This document shows positions 9,532 to 35,373 of a stretch of DNA of 37,048 bases, piece after piece. Position numbers and translations under genes: made by a program. The stretch spans positions 1 through 37,048 of the forward strand of contig JAUXNY010000016.1 in NCBI GenBank assembly GCA_030682615.1. Reading direction: 5' to 3'. Below the pieces are notes generated by a model. That model was not told the origin of the DNA and ran no database searches. It saw nothing but the letters and a program-made list of their open reading frames with translations. Origin of the DNA: Candidatus Aquicultor sp. Its GTDB lineage: Bacteria > Actinomycetota > Aquicultoria > Aquicultorales > Aquicultoraceae. Every line of letters begins with the position of its first letter. The stretch's first letter is position 1.

Positions 9532-11873
9532 AAAGGGCAGTTCCACCACTGGCGTTCTTTGCCATCGCTTTTATGGTGGGTATCGCAGTTTCCGAATGGC
9601 TCGATATAAGGTTGAGCTATCCGCTTTACGCATTACTAGCAGGTAATATAGTTCTTATCTTAAGCACAAGGAAAAGGGTATACTATAGGTATATACTGGC
9701 GGTGATTGCCCTTGTTTTGCTCGGCGTGATCCTAACGGCACTCGCATCAGAACGGCTGGACGCGGGCCTTCTGAACAAAGCGGCCGCTGACGGCGCGTAC
9801 GTCCAGGTGGAAGGGATTCTCATAAACGACGCCGTCTCCCGCCGGGGGCAGACGCGCTTCGATATCCGGGTGGCGCAGCTCGATGATGGAAGGCAGGACT
9901 GGGCGCTCAGGGAATATGCGCGTGTCCAAATCCGCTCAGACAAACGACTTGATCTGCACGCAGGGCAATCAGTCAGCGTCTCGGGCAAGGCAAGCCTGCC
10001 GAAATCAACCGGAGAATTCGACTACCGGCGCTACCTTTACTATCGCGGCATAACAGCTACTATTAATTCCAATCCAGTAGATATAACGTTGATAGAATCA
10101 AATCGGGGTGACGTCTGGGCGCTGCTCTTAAGCGGGGCGGGCGCTTCTCGCGATTGGATAAAAGAGCGCAATGCGGCCCATCTGCCGGGTGACGCGGCGG
10201 GCCTGCTCAACGGCATCGTTTTGGGAGACACCTCGATGTTGGGCGAGCGCGTCGATGAGTCGTTCAAGACGACCGGCTTGACACATATCGTGGCGGCCTC
10301 CGGCATGAACATCGCGCTCATCGTCGGCGCACTCTGGCCATTACTGCGCCTCTTACGGCTGCGCGCTCGCTTCCAATACGTCGTCCTCATTGCGGCAGCC
10401 GCCTCCTATACGCTTTTGAGCGGCATGCAGCCTTCGATTACCAGGGCGTTTCTTATGGCGCTCGTGGCCCTTAGTGCGTGGCTCTTCGGCAGAGGTAAGA
10501 ACCACCTGGCGTCGCTTGCGGCGGCGGCGCTCATCATCTTAATAATAAATCCGTTTTCCCTTTACGACATCGGGTTTCAGCTCTCGTTTGCCGCGACCGC
10601 CGCTATCATCCTGCTCGTGCCGCTTTTAGAGCAAATGCTCGCCGATGCCCCGCGTTCACTCCGCTCAGCCCTGGCGGTCACACTTGCCGCGCAAGTCGGG
10701 GTGCTGCCTATCATGATATATTATTTCGGCTACATCTCGACGATATCGCTGCTCGCGAACCTCATCGTCGCCCCGCTCGCCGGCCCAGTACTCATTCTCG
10801 GGATGGTCGTTGTGCCGGTCGAGGCGGCCTCCACAATGCTGGCGAGCCCTTTTTATTTGGTGCTGCGCTGGTTGTTGACCGCGATGATATCCGGTGCCGA
10901 GCTCCTCGCGAACGCGCCCGGCAGCGCTATCTACTTCAAGCAGCCGGGTTTAGTTATCGCAGCCGCGGCTTACGTCGTCTTAGGCGCCGGCCTGTTCTTC
11001 CTGCGCACGCTAAATGTGAGGTTAAGGCTTGCGCATATAGTGATGCTCTTAATAGCGGTTTCCGCTGCATCTATATGGTGGCAGGCGGGGATGGCGATGG
11101 CTCCAGCGCAACTCGAGGTGGTCTTCTTGGATGTAGGCCAGGGCGATGCCGCGTTGCTAACTGCGCCGGATGGAGCGCGGGTGCTCGTCGACGCGGGGCC
11201 GAACGCAGCCGTGCTCAAGCGGCGGCTCGCTGAGCGGGGAGTCAACCGAATCGACACGATTATCTTCAGCCATGAGCACGCCGATCATGTCGACGGGGTC
11301 CACGGGATATTGCGGGTCTGCAACGTGGGCGCGGTCGCGTATCCTCGCGCGATGGAGGAATCCGATGAGGGCAGGGCGCTAATCGGTCAGATAGAGAAGA
11401 GCGGGATAGAGCTGATAGCGCTCGATGACGGCGACACCCTGGAATTAGGTTCGGTGTTGAGGCTGGAAATCTTTGTTGCGAGCGAATACGCGGGAGACGG
11501 CCGCGACGATTCGGCGGTCTTTGCGGCCCGGTACGGAGACTTCGATATCCTGTTCACCGGCGATGCCGGAGATGAGACCGAGGCCTCGCTGCTAGCGCGG
11601 GGCGACGAGGTCGACGTCGACGTCGACGTCTTGAAAGTCGGCCACCACGGGAGCGCGTATTCGAGCGGCGATGATTTCCTGGGCGCGACTAAACCCGAGG
11701 TGTCGGTGATATCGGTAGGCCAATATAACAGGTACGGCCACCCGGCACGCCCCGCGCTCGACAGACTCAAAGCAGCCGGCTCTAAAATCTACCGCACAGA
11801 CCTCCACGGGGATGTTACAATTAAGTCTGACGGTGAGACCTACCGCGTCTACGTGGAGAAGCAGGCAGACTGA
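9528..11873 (+). CDS. comEC: ComEC/Rec2 DNA-uptake channel with metallo-beta-lactamase domain
   Basis: A 781-aa polytopic membrane protein that passes single-stranded DNA into the cell during transformation. It has N-terminal membrane helices and a DUF4131/OB-like region (EYARVQIRSDKRLDLHAGQSV), the Competence core (GLTHIVAASGMNIALIVG to SFAATAAIILLVPLL), and a C-terminal metallo-beta-lactamase-like domain. That domain carries VVFLDVGQGDAALL, SHEHADHVDG (H582, H584, D586, H587), FTGDA and LKVGHHGS. Nuclease metal ligands look intact. A hexamer repeat GTCGAC near 11610-11628 encodes an Asp-Val tract. The gene is coupled to comEA (4-nt overlap) and lies 2 nt before holA. Confidence 0.96.
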   Translation: MKRAVPPLAFFAIAFMVGIAVSEWLDIRLSYPLYALLAGNIVLILSTRKRVYYRYILAVIALVLLGVILTALASERLDAGLLNKAAADGAYVQVEGILINDAVSRRGQTRFDIRVAQLDDGRQDWALREYARVQIRSDKRLDLHAGQSVSVSGKASLPKSTGEFDYRRYLYYRGITATINSNPVDITLIESNRGDVWALLLSGAGASRDWIKERNAAHLPGDAAGLLNGIVLGDTSMLGERVDESFKTTGLTHIVAASGMNIALIVGALWPLLRLLRLRARFQYVVLIAAAASYTLLSGMQPSITRAFLMALVALSAWLFGRGKNHLASLAAAALIILIINPFSLYDIGFQLSFAATAAIILLVPLLEQMLADAPRSLRSALAVTLAAQVGVLPIMIYYFGYISTISLLANLIVAPLAGPVLILGMVVVPVEAASTMLASPFYLVLRWLLTAMISGAELLANAPGSAIYFKQPGLVIAAAAYVVLGAGLFFLRTLNVRLRLAHIVMLLIAVSAASIWWQAGMAMAPAQLEVVFLDVGQGDAALLTAPDGARVLVDAGPNAAVLKRRLAERGVNRIDTIIFSHEHADHVDGVHGILRVCNVGAVAYPRAMEESDEGRALIGQIEKSGIELIALDDGDTLELGSVLRLEIFVASEYAGDGRDDSAVFAARYGDFDILFTGDAGDETEASLLARGDEVDVDVDVLKVGHHGSAYSSGDDFLGATKPEVSVISVGQYNRYGHPARPALDRLKAAGSKIYRTDLHGDVTIKSDGETYRVYVEKQAD

Positions 11874-11875
11874 TC

Positions 11876-12880
11876 ATGAATAAAAAACCGGCTCAAAGCG
11901 CAAAACAAAAACCATTAAAACCCGTCTATCTAATACACGGCGATAAGAAATTAATCGACGAAGCCCTGGCGCGCCTCAAAAAGCGCATCTCCGCCCAGTT
12001 TGACCTCGATTTCAACTACGACCAATTCAACGGCGCGGAGGTAAGCGCCGCGAAGGTCATCCAGGCCGCAAATACGCTGCCGTTCATGTCCGAGAAACGC
12101 CTGGTCGTCGTTAAGAACGCCGAAAAGCTCTCGCGAGACGATGCGGGCCAACTCGCCGAATACGCCGAGAAACCGTCCGAGTTCGCATGCGTAGTCTTTG
12201 TCTCGAACAGCGCCAACAAGACGAGCCGTCTCTACAAAGCGGTCGAGAAGACGGGCGAAATCGCCGAATATTCACTCAAAATCCTAAACAAAAGCCCCAC
12301 AGTCTGGATAAAAGAGCAGTTTGCGGCGCGCGGCAAACTCGTCTCCGATGCCGTCGCCAGACACTTGCTGCACGTGGTCGGATCCGACCTCAACCGGCTT
12401 GCCACCGAAATCGAGAAGATCAGCCTCTACTGCGAAGATGAGCGCATCATCGACCCCGACGAGGTCGACCCGGTCGTCACCAGGTCAACGGAGGTATCGA
12501 TATTCGACCTCTCGACGCACATAGGGGAGCGCAACGTCCCAAAAGCTATCGAGCTGCTTGACCAGCTGCTCACTCAGAAAGAGGCGCCGCTCGGCCTCCT
12601 TAGCCTCATCGCCCGCCACTTCCGTCTTATCCTGCGGACGAAGGTGTGGACAGAAGCGGGGCGCGACAGCAGATACCTAGTCGAGAACCTGACAGGCGAG
12701 GGCGGGAAGAAACTGCCGCCTTTCGTCGTCTCCAAATACCGCGAACAGAGCCGCAACTTCTCCATCGAAGAGCTTAAGCGAGCATTCGAGCTGCTGCTTA
12801 AGGCCGACATCGCCCTCAAATCCAGCCCCCAACCTCCCGAGGCCGTGTTAGAGGATTTGGTTGTGCGGTTGGCTGTTTAA
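11876..12880 (+). CDS. holA: DNA polymerase III delta subunit
   Basis: The clamp-loader delta subunit, which opens the beta clamp. The 334-aa length is normal. Features are YLIHGDKKLIDEALARL at the N-terminus, FDLDFNYDQFNGAEVSAAKV, the LPFMSEKRLVVVKNAEKL segment that contacts the clamp, and the C-terminal region (STEVSIFDLSTHIGERNVPKAIELLDQLL, LLSLIARHFRLILR, LLLKADIALKSS). holA after comEC is a conserved order in Gram-positive and actinobacterial genomes. There rpsT commonly follows, but here an accessory island begins instead. No convincing terminator was found after the stop. Confidence 0.95.
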   Translation: MNKKPAQSAKQKPLKPVYLIHGDKKLIDEALARLKKRISAQFDLDFNYDQFNGAEVSAAKVIQAANTLPFMSEKRLVVVKNAEKLSRDDAGQLAEYAEKPSEFACVVFVSNSANKTSRLYKAVEKTGEIAEYSLKILNKSPTVWIKEQFAARGKLVSDAVARHLLHVVGSDLNRLATEIEKISLYCEDERIIDPDEVDPVVTRSTEVSIFDLSTHIGERNVPKAIELLDQLLTQKEAPLGLLSLIARHFRLILRTKVWTEAGRDSRYLVENLTGEGGKKLPPFVVSKYREQSRNFSIEELKRAFELLLKADIALKSSPQPPEAVLEDLVVRLAV

Positions 12881-12966
12881 GGTTCTTCTAAAAACCGGCT
12901 TTTTATATTATAGTGAACTAACAGTGAACTAACAGGTCTTTGTTTGAGGATAGCCTTACTTGAGGT

Positions 12967-13389
12967 GTGGTTTTAGTGCGAGAACCAACAAAACAGGAGA
13001 TAACCGAAGTTTGTAGTAAGTACGGGGTCGAGTTTCTGGCTCTCTTTGGCTCAAGAGCAGCCGGGGAAGCAAGAAAAGAAAGTGACATAGACCTGGCCGC
13101 TTTCTTTAGCCGACGTATTTCAACAAGGGAAGAACTCGATTTCTTCTACGAGCTTGTGCGGCTGTTTGGAACCGATCGACTTGATCTTATTGTGCTGGAT
13201 AGAGCCAACCCACTACTTCTAAAGGAAGTGGCCCTTTACGGAGTACCGCTTTTTGAACGGCGTAAAGAATCTTTTGATGAGTTTATCATCCTGGCCATAG
13301 CTAAATATCATGATACCAGGAAAAACAGGCGTTTTGAAAAAGAACTTACAGAAGAGTTCTTAGAGGAGAAGAAGCGTGAAGCGGTTTGA
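12967..13389 (+). CDS. MNT-type nucleotidyltransferase antitoxin (MntA family)
   Basis: A 140-aa minimal nucleotidyltransferase. The signature GSRAAGEARKESDIDL (GS at 28-29, D40, D42) is followed by RLDLIVLDRANPLLL, typical of MntA proteins, which AMPylate and neutralise a HepT/HEPN RNase. GTG at 12967 is the track start. GTG 12976 (VREPTKQ) is a reasonable alternative, and the upstream TTGAGG is only a moderate ribosome site. A short tandem repeat (AGTGAACTAAC twice) lies just upstream. The 3' end overlaps the HepT-like remnant by 14 bases, the usual coupled layout, but that toxin is broken. This gene may be an orphan antitoxin. Confidence 0.88.
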   Translation: MVLVREPTKQEITEVCSKYGVEFLALFGSRAAGEARKESDIDLAAFFSRRISTREELDFFYELVRLFGTDRLDLIVLDRANPLLLKEVALYGVPLFERRKESFDEFIILAIAKYHDTRKNRRFEKELTEEFLEEKKREAV

Positions 13390-13642
13390 TCCTGATATTT
13401 ACGATTCTTTCGTTAAGTTAGGTGAGCAGGATATGGTTCCGATGGAATTTGCATCAAAGATAGCGCCATCATCCGGCCTGAGAAGTCGTCTGGTCCACGA
13501 GTATGATAGGATCGATGACGCAATTGCCCATGCGAGCACTAAAGTTGGCGGTATAAAAAAACTCACCCCCTATAGATTTCTCGGCGGTGTCCAATTGCAA
13601 TCACTAGAACAACCAATTCGCCGTTATCGATTGTGTAAATAA
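13376..13642 (+). pseudogene. HepT-like HEPN toxin with internal deletion
   Basis: GTG at 13376 (GAGGAG upstream) gives MKRFDPDIYDSFVKLGEQ, then MVPMEFASKIAPSSGLRSRL and VHEYDRIDD. The segment GLRSRLVHEYDRID is the HepT catalytic motif (R-x4-H-x-Y). Family members have some 50-60 helical residues between the N-terminal 'F..DVY' and the 'LGE..VIP.EFA' segment. Here the two are fused directly (DIYDSFVKLGE), consistent with an in-frame deletion. After about position 13550 the frame merely reads the antisense of the relE 3' end, so the natural C-terminus is also gone. I read it as a decayed toxin partner of the upstream MNT gene. A short active variant is less likely. Confidence 0.72.
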
Positions 13643-13820
13643 TTCTAAAAGCTCCAACTCTTAATTTCCAACGATCCTTTAGTTTACCTACTAAAGGGAA
13701 GCCAATTTGCGGATCGTCCTCAATTCTTCGTAGGGCTTTAAGCATTCTCAAGAAATCTTTCTTTTGAAGGTTATCAAGGTCCTTCTGGGCTTGTTTGGAG
13801 AGCCGAAGCTCATATTTCAC
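13563..13820 (-). CDS. RelE/ParE-family toxin
   Basis: An 85-aa protein of the RelE/ParE superfamily: MKYELRLSKQAQKDLDNLQK at the N-terminus, central GFPLVGKLKDRWKLRVGAFR, and IIYTIDNGELVVLVIAIGHR, with HRREIYRG at the C-terminus. This is the classic RelE-type fold and length. RelE members cut mRNA on the ribosome, while ParE members poison gyrase. The YTID...IGHRREIY end favours a RelE-like mRNase. It is translated from the same transcript as the upstream antitoxin, with a 4-nt overlap (13817-13820). The toxin 3' end lies opposite the HepT remnant. Confidence 0.92.
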   Translation of the reverse strand: MKYELRLSKQAQKDLDNLQKKDFLRMLKALRRIEDDPQIGFPLVGKLKDRWKLRVGAFRIIYTIDNGELVVLVIAIGHRREIYRG

Positions 13821-14101
13821 GCAAGCCTCTCTTCTCGATCCTTAAGGTATTCGTTTAGCGAGGCAATATCGCCCCTTTTGATATCTTCTTCGCCTTCCTG
13901 GACGGCCTTCATGAGTTCAGGATCGCTCAACACATCAAGTGTTTCCAGCAATCTTTCGTATTCCTCATATGATAGGAGAATCGCTAAAGGCTTTCCTCTT
14001 CTTGTGATAATGACGTGTTCCCCAAGGTCTTCAATCTCATTTAACAATGAAGCAAGCGAAGCCCTGGCCTCTGCTGATGATACAACTTTATTAACCGGCA
14101 C
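13817..14101 (-). CDS. Phd/YefM-family antitoxin
   Basis: A 94-aa DNA-binding antitoxin. The N-terminus NKVVSSAEARASLASLLNEI, ITRRGKPLAILLSYEEYERL and an acidic extended C-terminus (AVQEGEEDIKRGD) match Phd/YefM proteins, which dimerise on operator DNA and wrap the toxin with the C-terminal tail. The start is GTG at 14101 with AGAGGGGTG upstream on the minus strand. It precedes and overlaps the RelE-type toxin gene by 4 nt. A perfect palindrome 33-56 bases upstream is the likely autoregulatory operator. Confidence 0.93.
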   Translation of the reverse strand: MPVNKVVSSAEARASLASLLNEIEDLGEHVIITRRGKPLAILLSYEEYERLLETLDVLSDPELMKAVQEGEEDIKRGDIASLNEYLKDREERLA

Positions 14102-14133
14102 AATTAATCACCCCTCTTAAGTTCGATAATGTT

Positions 14134-14157
14134 AATTGTACATAATCATGTACAATT
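14134..14157 (-). promoter_or_regulatory. Palindromic operator/promoter of the Phd-RelE operon
   Basis: AATTGTACAT (14134-14143) and ATGTACAATT (14148-14157) are a perfect 10-bp inverted repeat with a 4-nt spacer. On the minus strand the palindrome contains TTGTAC, a plausible -35, with CATTAT about 18 bases further as a -10. This is the expected position for Phd-type autorepression. It lies in the divergent gap with the HTH-nucleotidyltransferase gene. Confidence 0.7.
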
Positions 14158-14318
14158 CATCAATTATAGTTATGGGCACGCTCTCAATCCGCTGGACTTA
14201 TCAAACCTACCCGCATAGAAGCAGTCTATTTATTCTTATATTTGCTTACAATTTCTTATATTTTCATGTTTGCTTGTCGATAATAGGGTAAAATTAGGAT
14301 TCATAGGAGATGAATAAA

Positions 14319-15059
14319 ATGTCTGAGTCCTTGATGACAGTTAAAGATGTTGCTAAATATTTAGGTTTGAGCGAACGGACACTCTACAGCATGATTAAGC
14401 GTGAAGAGATTCCGTATGTTAAGGTCGGCGGGCGATATCGATTCAATCGCGAAAAAGTCGAAGAGTGGCTTGAGCGGAAATCAACAGAAAGAATGCTCAC
14501 AGCAAAAGAAAAAATGCCTACTGCGTTACAGCGGGTAGAAGAGACCGCCGACCCGCTCACAAAAAGGCTGTTGTTTATTGGTCTCCTAACCCGAGAGCTT
14601 GAGAAGGATAACATCAAACCGATCATCGTCGGTGGAAATGCGGTTGAGTTTTACACGGCTGGCGGTTACGCGACTTATGATATAGATGTGATTGCTCCCA
14701 GCGAGCCCCTGGACAAGGTTTTGAAAAGATGGGGCTTCGATAAGGTCGGCAGGCACTGGATAAGCGAGAAACTCGATATTGTTATCGAAGCTCCGGCGTA
14801 TGCGTTAGAGACTGCGGAGCAACGCGACAAATTATACGAGGTCGAAATAGACGATCTTAAAGTCTACGTTCTAGGTATCGAGGACCTGATTGTCGATAGA
14901 CTTAACGCCTATGTCCACTGGAAGTCCCAAGATGATGGGATTTGGGCCAAGGAGCTGATGGTTTTGCACTCCAAGGAAATCGACTGGGATTATTTGGCGA
15001 AAAGAGCGGGAGAGGAACGGGTTGAAGCTGCTCTTGCGGATCTAAAAGAGGAGTTTTGA
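14319..15059 (+). CDS. HTH_17 DNA-binding domain fused to a nucleotidyltransferase domain
   Basis: A 246-aa two-domain protein. Residues about 5-55 form an excisionase/BldC-like winged HTH (LMTVKDVAKYLGLSERTLYS, then IPYVKVGGRYRFNREKVEEW). Residues about 85-230 form a nucleotidyltransferase of the DUF6036/AbiEii-like type (IIVGGNAVEFYTAGGYATYD). GG at 105-106, D121 and D123 in DIDV and D153 in KLDIVI supply the metal site. Related nucleotidyltransferases act as toxins or antitoxins, but the target here is unknown. ATG 14319 is preferred over the track's 14310, since AGGAG ends immediately before 14310 and sits 9 nt before 14319. A 73-aa gene follows 4 nt downstream. Confidence 0.82.
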   Translation: MSESLMTVKDVAKYLGLSERTLYSMIKREEIPYVKVGGRYRFNREKVEEWLERKSTERMLTAKEKMPTALQRVEETADPLTKRLLFIGLLTRELEKDNIKPIIVGGNAVEFYTAGGYATYDIDVIAPSEPLDKVLKRWGFDKVGRHWISEKLDIVIEAPAYALETAEQRDKLYEVEIDDLKVYVLGIEDLIVDRLNAYVHWKSQDDGIWAKELMVLHSKEIDWDYLAKRAGEERVEAALADLKEEF

Positions 15060-15063
15060 GAAT

Positions 15064-15285
15064 ATGAGAAAGATAAACTGGGATGAATACAAGGCTAAAA
15101 GAGCTGGTTTTGCAAGGGTTAAAGCTCAGCTTGGTCTTGATAGAAAGCCTTCCTCCCGCGTTAGAGACATGGATGAGAGAAACCTCTTAATCCAGCTCGA
15201 TAAGGCCCGGCTCGAAGCTTGGAAAGAAGAGGGTAAATTCGAGATTTTGGGCCCTAGAAAAATCAGATTCCAGGTCAATCAGTAA
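15064..15285 (+). CDS. 73-aa hypothetical partner of the HTH-nucleotidyltransferase
   Basis: A small, highly charged protein (MRKINWDEYKAKRAGFARVK to FEILGPRKIRFQVNQ) with no family I recognise. It starts with ATG 4 nt after the upstream stop, with AGAGGAG 10 nt before it, so it is almost certainly co-translated with the HTH-nucleotidyltransferase. It looks helical for residues 1-55 and ends in a short basic strand. Its size and position suggest a toxin-antitoxin-like partner, but that is inference from context only. Confidence 0.7.
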   Translation: MRKINWDEYKAKRAGFARVKAQLGLDRKPSSRVRDMDERNLLIQLDKARLEAWKEEGKFEILGPRKIRFQVNQ

Positions 15286-15305
15286 ACGCGAGGGACGGGC
15301 GCAAG

Positions 15306-34639: not shown

Positions 34640-34987
34640 ATGGCCTTGTATTTGACTGAGATCGAGGAACAGGCTGTTAATGCTCTTAAAGAAAATTTAA
34701 TTAAACATCTACCAAATCACATCAGATCAATAACGCTTTTTGGTTCTAAGGCTCGGGGAGAAGGTGGCCCGTACTCTGATATTGATTTGCTTGTTACAGT
34801 GGATCAAGAAGAACTTGAGCTTTGGGACAAAATCCAAGAGATTTCAAGCGAAATTTCCATAGAGTATGATGTCCTTCTCTCGGTTAAAGTGATGGATTTA
34901 CCACATTTAGAATTATTAAGAAATGTTCAGAGCGGCTTTATCAGAAACATAGAAAAGGAAGGCTCTGTTATATGGAAAGCAGCCTAA
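34640..34987 (+). CDS. MNT-type nucleotidyltransferase antitoxin
   Basis: A 115-aa minimal nucleotidyltransferase. TLFGSKARGEGGPYSDIDLL contains the GS pair (35-36) and D47/D49 of the metal site. The C-terminal half (IEYDVLLSVKVMDLPHLELL) is standard. MntA-like enzymes AMPylate the partner HEPN RNase and so block it. ATG 34640 has AGGAG about 9 nt upstream. It overlaps the HEPN gene by 16 bases. The pair is AT-richer than the neighbouring polysaccharide genes and lies between two direct repeats, which suggests transfer as a unit. Confidence 0.92.
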   Translation: MALYLTEIEEQAVNALKENLIKHLPNHIRSITLFGSKARGEGGPYSDIDLLVTVDQEELELWDKIQEISSEISIEYDVLLSVKVMDLPHLELLRNVQSGFIRNIEKEGSVIWKAA

Positions 34988-35373
34988 AAGAAAGAATCGC
35001 CAAAAGTCTTGAAAAGGCGAATGAGGCTCTTAAGGAAGCAGAAACGCTGTTACTACAAAAGCTATACGGAGGGACGGTATCAAGAAGCTACTATGCTGTT
35101 TTTCATGCTACTTGCGCTCTTCTCTTGATTAAAAATTTAGAGTTCTCTAAACATTCGGCAGTGATTGCTGCTTTTGGTCATCAATTTATAAGAGAGGGTT
35201 TGCTTGACAAAAAATACCATAAGATACTTATTGGTGCCTATGAAGCTAGGCAGCTTGCCGAATATGATATTTTTAAGAAAATAAACCCTGAATTTGCCGG
35301 CAAGATTTTTGAAGAAGCAAAAGAGTTTGTTTTAATGGCAGAAGAATACACGAAAGCTCATGCGGGAGGTTAG
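34972..35373 (+). CDS. HEPN-domain protein (toxin of MNT-HEPN pair)
   Basis: A 133-aa all-helical HEPN protein of the COG1895 group. VSRSYYAVFHATCALLL (37-53) and the second conserved helix YEARQLAEYD (R93) are typical. HEPN toxins are usually metal-independent RNases with an R-x4-6-H motif. Here the second motif reads R-QLAEYD with Tyr instead of His, as in many MNT-linked HEPN proteins of this subgroup. RNase activity is thus plausible but not certain. ATG 34972 lies inside the MNT gene end, so translation is coupled. Confidence 0.9.
   Translation: MESSLKERIAKSLEKANEALKEAETLLLQKLYGGTVSRSYYAVFHATCALLLIKNLEFSKHSAVIAAFGHQFIREGLLDKKYHKILIGAYEARQLAEYDIFKKINPEFAGKIFEEAKEFVLMAEEYTKAHAGG

Follow-up and report, generated by a model that had tools for sequence, protein, structure and literature searches.

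A DUF6036 nucleotidyltransferase fused to an HTH_17 domain and its small partner as a probable toxin–antitoxin module

Among the described systems closest to the locus analyzed here is MenAT1, in which the antitoxin MenA1, a helical protein of 68 aa, inhibits the toxin MenT1 (PMC10435456) and induces its auto-phosphorylation at T39, two residues before D41 (PMC11375011). MenAT1 has been reported not to autoregulate (PMC11375011). According to the canonical rule, the antitoxin's domain binds the operator of the toxin–antitoxin operon, one described exception involving a third regulator gene (PMC8630535); an antitoxin-borne DNA-binding domain is nevertheless usual rather than universal in type II systems, since MenA1 also has none (PMC10435456). 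As for the DNA-binding proteins relevant below, BldC protects DNA tracts one helical turn apart (PMC5859096), and RdfS is bound at one molecule per 10 bp (PMC11963761).

The locus lies in a window of 37,048 nucleotides from Candidatus Aquicultor sp. (the whole stretch of DNA that was analyzed) and consists of two genes on the forward strand. The first ORF (14310..15059) joins an HTH_17 domain of the BldC/excisionase-like winged HTH type (14331..14480, aa 8-57; PF12728, E 8e-19; TIGR01764, E 4e-18) to a DUF6036 nucleotidyltransferase (NTase) domain (aa 98-236, Pfam E 5e-10), whose match to PF19502 reached 39.9 bits against a curated cut-off of 23.6. Translation probably starts at 14319 (MSESLMTVK...) rather than at 14310, because position 14319 follows a TAGGAG motif by 9 nt and fits the N-termini of the homologues. 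The NTase stop codon is followed after 4 nt by the second ORF (15064..15285), which encodes a basic protein of 73 residues, for which nothing above threshold was found in Pfam, NCBIfam or PADLOC. The preliminary description, made from the sequence alone, had recognized both an excisionase-like HTH fused to a complete NTase site and a closely coupled protein of unknown family, and both features were confirmed. To our knowledge, no function has been assigned to DUF6036, and a search of 5.39 million open papers yielded no mention of it.

Conservation of the enzyme was assessed over 50 NTase homologues, 45 of which matched DUF6036 at E<=0.01. G108, T122, D124, D126, E160, D192, D196 and R197 were identical in all 50 and G109 in 49, so that the active site formed by G108-G109, T122-x-D124-x-D126 and E160 (14631..14789, +) is not only intact, as first described, but invariant or nearly so across the homologues. 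The AlphaFold model of the HTH-NTase has a pLDDT of 93. Among solved structures, its best Foldseek match was to the MenT1 chain of the MenAT1 complex (8an5, E 1e-5); ANT(2'')-Ia came next and scored almost as well, TglT/MenT3 was a weaker match, and the TM-scores were moderate (0.35-0.57). For the HTH domain, Foldseek retrieved BldC bound to DNA (6ama, TM(target) 0.73) and RdfS (8dgl, TM(target) 0.68). The combination characteristic of MenT-type enzymes, an NTase fold with a DxD motif preceded by Ser/Thr two residues ahead, is present here, the motif T122-x-D124-x-D126 being shared by all 50 homologues. The invariant D196-R197 falls within the stretch where a catalytic Lys (K137 in MenT1) might be expected. 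No DUF1814/MenT/AbiEii family was among the Pfam matches to the NTase listed at E<=1, and a search of PDB sequences with the NTase profile returned no match. The enzyme is thus not DUF1814/MenT by sequence, and what we claim is that it works like a MenT, not that it is one.

A scan of GTDB representative contigs, made with the NTase alignment because that of the partner was too poorly conserved, yielded 51 loci, and in 46 of them, spread over many phyla and in either gene order, the small gene stood beside the NTase (partners were called with an iterated partner profile, the count including L070, found individually, and L064, at a cut-off contig end). Of the five loci without the partner, L076 has a truncated NTase and the other four (L093-L096) form a sister clade. 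Cultured relatives are also represented, namely Moorella mulderi, Thermosediminibacter litoriperuensis and Halanaerobium (L077, L081 and L072). The NTase-partner order was observed in Actinomycetota, Desantisbacteria, WOR-3 and others, and the partner-NTase order in most Bacillota, Synergistota and one Myxococcota locus. Within the same phylum as the window the occurrence is patchy, with the partner gene in 12 of 397 genomes; it lies 3' of an NTase homologue in ten of these carriers, and the other two (G061 and G073) keep only an NTase stub. Additionally, all 12 NTases with near-full-length matches in a sample of 200 Bacillota genomes, which overlap partly with the loci of the earlier scan, have the partner. 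The conserved two-gene operon typical of type II toxin–antitoxin systems is therefore present, and both features on which the preliminary description had made its interpretation depend, linkage of the two genes elsewhere and conserved catalytic residues, were found. That description had treated the HTH-NTase and its small partner as one system, which stands for the pair but not for the HTH domain: about half of the NTase family is devoid of the HTH and still keeps the partner, indicating that the partner goes with the enzyme and not with the HTH. Pattern and profile searches of viral contigs revealed no relatives of the partner and none of the NTase.

Plasmids also carry related genes. A match on a Nitratidesulfovibrio plasmid (H1) was rejected as an HTH-bearing homologue because stop codons interrupt what looked like the HTH; the gene encodes an NTase lacking this domain, and the partner profile does not recognize the small gene downstream of it. 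On plasmids of Nitratidesulfovibrio vulgaris and Croceicoccus marinus (L170, L171 and L172), DUF6036-like NTases are directly followed at the 3' side by a small gene of unknown family, none of the three being recognized by the partner profile, and in L172 this pair adjoins a HipA toxin–antitoxin pair.

The model of the partner (pLDDT 86, pTM 0.50) consists of two helices plus a beta-hairpin and matches no known fold; a Foldseek search with it gave nothing significant, and the partner profile found no match among PDB sequences. When 42 partner members were compared with Pfam, no convincing family emerged (best E 0.017, in single members), and a HEPN (HepT) match was absent in all 42. Not one residue is invariant across these members, and the mean identity of 30%, versus 41% for the NTase, shows that the partner diverges faster. 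Fast divergence and the lack of invariant residues fit an antitoxin better than an enzyme, and we propose the 73-aa protein as a member of a new candidate antitoxin family.

Upstream of the operon, the sequence TTCTTATATTT occurs in exact copies at 14233 and 14253, which had been interpreted as two sites two helical turns apart. The repeats are real, but these 11-bp copies are units 1 and 3 of an array of four tandem 10-bp direct-repeat units with a period of one turn (14232..14271, +), namely ATTCTTATAT (14232-14241), TTGCTTACAA (14242-14251), TTTCTTATAT (14252-14261) and TTTCATGTTT (14262-14271). From its sequence and lag-10 periodicity this array is predicted to be the binding site (operator) of the HTH_17 domain, and a -10-like box, GATAAT (14279..14284, +), lies at its end. 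An 11-bp exact direct repeat had a chance of ~1% in dinucleotide-matched simulations of the intergenic region and, taken alone, is suggestive without being decisive; the array is convincing because the 10-bp periodicity recurs in homologues. Within the 100 bp upstream, the lag-10 periodicity had a mean z of 2.37 in HTH-bearing operons (n=20) versus -0.02 in HTH-less ones (n=30), with a Mann-Whitney p=2.6e-7 that is nominal since several HTH-bearing loci share ancestry, and over lags 7 to 14 the HTH-bearing operons exhibited no periodicity other than at 10. The geometry of 10-bp units followed by GATAAT is also found in three further loci (L046, L048 and L049). The unit sequence varies by subclade (TTTCTTATAT versus TTCCTATAGN) while the 10-bp period is kept, and owing to this drift a simple count of the repeat-unit motif did not separate HTH-bearing from HTH-less operons (p 0.12), whereas the periodicity test did. 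The BldC/Xis-like spacing of direct repeats, about one turn of the helix, thus accompanies HTH-bearing operons only, which implies autoregulation of the operon by the BldC/Xis-like HTH_17 domain on the NTase; this predicted binding agrees with the self-regulation proposed earlier. Given the overlap of the array with the region where a -35 element is expected, repression by the HTH-NTase would be the simplest outcome.

The sister clades of DUF6036 NTases keep other neighbors. In L093 and L094 the NTase start is overlapped by a Phd/YefM-type gene (Pfam above threshold), and inspection showed the same architecture in L124-L128 and L130-L132, which include some of the genomes of L093/L094; a winged-HTH gene accompanies the sister NTases of L133-L138, L141 and L145, and an Xre-type gene that of L024. 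The last 18 residues of the winged-HTH partners resemble the core motif of the small partner in L133, L138 and L141 (p ~0.005-0.009), more weakly in L135 and L136 and not at all in L134, L145 and L146, giving p<0.06 in five of eight proteins; a divergent partner of 61 aa (L162) matched the motif with p<0.0005. The motif was not seen in the Phd-type partners, and hhalign comparisons of the partner with the winged-HTH and Phd proteins were not significant. Because this profile-profile comparison gave no support, we treat homology between the partner and the winged-HTH C-terminus as a lead only.

Decay of the pair proceeds in one direction. The NTase is disrupted beside an intact partner in five loci (L035, L039, L163, L166 and L167), and no locus of the family proper has an intact NTase without the partner or another antitoxin-type neighbor, the exception among the sisters being L096/L123, in which an intact NTase has no recognizable antitoxin. 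The relative G061 has lost the beginning of the NTase gene together with a large part of the RelE/Phd pair, and it retains the partner at 90% identity. A paralogue lineage without the partner (L002 and L014-L019, same bacterial family) has a dead active site.

The latter lineage includes the paralogue on contig C10 of the same genome, which was considered as a second copy of the system and discarded, its active site being dead and the partner missing. This gene (L002, G000:C10:5902-6456) and L017, L018 and L019 constitute a conserved dead-site DUF6036 paralogue in several genera of the family, possibly domesticated. The HTH_17-NTase homologues L014:1501-2205, L015:1501-2181 and L016:1501-2208 (G138, G095 and G049) belong to one genus of this family, and in all three species a single in-frame TGA occupies the same codon (KC*DFPV). 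Their differences favor third codon positions both before and after the TGA, ~18 nt downstream of it there is a hairpin whose loop is GGTC and which shows a compensatory change, and two of the three genomes have strong tRNA-Sec matches; the TGA is a possible selenocysteine codon in the DNA-binding domain. These three genes likewise have a dead NTase active site and no partner.

Other toxin–antitoxin genes surround the operon. A RelE/ParE-type toxin with a Phd/YefM antitoxin (13563-14101, reverse strand) is divergent from it, with its promoter region adjoining the iteron array, and a type VII MntA/HepT pair (12967-13642) lies ~1 kb upstream. The MntA antitoxin is intact; HepT matches only profile positions 56-105 of 120 and is apparently cut at both ends, so that this pair looks like another case of toxin lost and antitoxin kept. 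A second MNT-HEPN pair is located in the window at 34640-35373. In L035 (G061:C28), compared with window positions 10663-15294, the remnant of the toxin–antitoxin genes separates comEC from the gene after it (equivalent to window 11902-12879), unlike the window, where the island comes after that gene; judging from this arrangement, the island has moved between the two.

Together, the computed pairing, the antitoxin-type neighbors of the sister clades, the one-sided decay, the invariant catalysis, the MenT1 match and the HTH-linked array argue that the pair is probably a toxin–antitoxin module of a MenT-like NTase toxin and a small antitoxin. We infer from these features toxicity, its neutralization, an RNA target and repression. 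By analogy with MenT, the DUF6036 NTase would act as the toxin, probably by nucleotide transfer to RNA such as the tRNA 3' end; the 73-aa antitoxin would bind and silence it; and the toxin-fused HTH_17 would occupy the 10-bp array that covers its own promoter, with one protomer for each turn of the helix, much as in BldC, Xis and RdfS. The DNA-binding domain, located on the antitoxin (Phd or winged-HTH) in related DUF6036 pairs, would here have moved to the toxin. Whether the wiring is reversed to its full extent is, in our estimate, an even call: the toxin would be its own repressor, forming a filament on the 10-bp iterons, the antitoxin, having no DNA-binding domain, would control activity only, and members of a single NTase superfamily would differ, through movement of the domain, in whether the antitoxin (Phd, winged-HTH), the toxin (HTH_17) or neither protein bears it.

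The assignment of roles deserves scrutiny, since the usual residence of the DNA-binding domain on the antitoxin mildly counterbalances the NTase-toxin interpretation. If the roles were reversed, the HTH-NTase would be antitoxin and autorepressor, nucleotidylating a 73-aa toxin as MntA does HepT, and NTase antitoxins do exist, one with its HepT being encoded 1 kb upstream. We consider this unlikely, however, given that the partner outlives the broken NTase in five loci and is not enzyme-like in having no invariant residue across 42 members, and that sister NTases have Phd, winged-HTH and Xre antitoxin-type genes beside them. These alternative neighbors, several and unrelated, also weigh against an ANT-like enzyme that modifies small molecules or antibiotics and is self-regulated together with an accessory protein, an explanation that the near-equality of ANT(2'')-Ia and MenT1 structures in Foldseek would favor; with the partner gene present in such a small share of the genomes of its phylum and decaying one-sidedly, we regard it as quite improbable.

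The membership of HTH_17 in the Xis/RdfS/BldC group could also be taken to mean that the gene is a mobile-element regulator, whose excisionase-like HTH serves recombination and whose NTase is incidental. No loci were found in viral contigs, the array is promoter-proximal and absent where the HTH is absent, and half of the family keeps the pair without the HTH, which makes such a role very improbable. The preliminary description had left the choice between an uncharacterized toxin–antitoxin type and a defense type; a toxin–antitoxin module is the better supported of the two, and defense is unsupported, with no viral-contig loci and the HTH domain as the sole PADLOC match.

This evidence links the whole DUF6036 NTase family to toxin–antitoxin biology. 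What is new relative to known systems is the family of the enzyme, that of the candidate antitoxin, and the position of the DNA-binding domain on the putative toxin. Loci with this domain on the antitoxin, on the toxin or on neither form a natural series for probing toxin–antitoxin autoregulation, which also bears on conditional cooperativity where toxin and repressor would be one protein.

Compared with MenAT1 of Mycobacterium tuberculosis, whose toxin belongs to DUF1814/AbiEii, the locus shares the minimal NTase fold, the T39-x-D41 phosphoacceptor spacing of MenT1 (T122-x-D124 here) and a small helical antitoxin candidate without a DNA-binding domain, but differs in its Pfam family, in antitoxin sequences that are unrelated as far as tested, and in the HTH fused to the putative toxin, MenAT1 being reported not to autoregulate (PMC11375011). 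The AbiE (AbiEi/AbiEii) and COG5340-DUF1814 systems similarly combine an NTase toxin with a partner, and their winged-HTH antitoxin has a parallel in the sister DUF6036 clade; here, unlike in those systems and in usual type II modules, the proposed toxin (the NTase) and not its partner carries the DNA-binding domain. Type VII MntA/HepT is likewise a two-gene module with a minimal NTase, although the partner described here is not HEPN and the roles would be reversed. Finally, the BldC, RdfS and Xis winged-HTH proteins resemble the HTH_17 domain in fold and in a direct-repeat DNA target with one-turn spacing, but those are stand-alone small regulators, whereas here the domain is fused to an enzyme.
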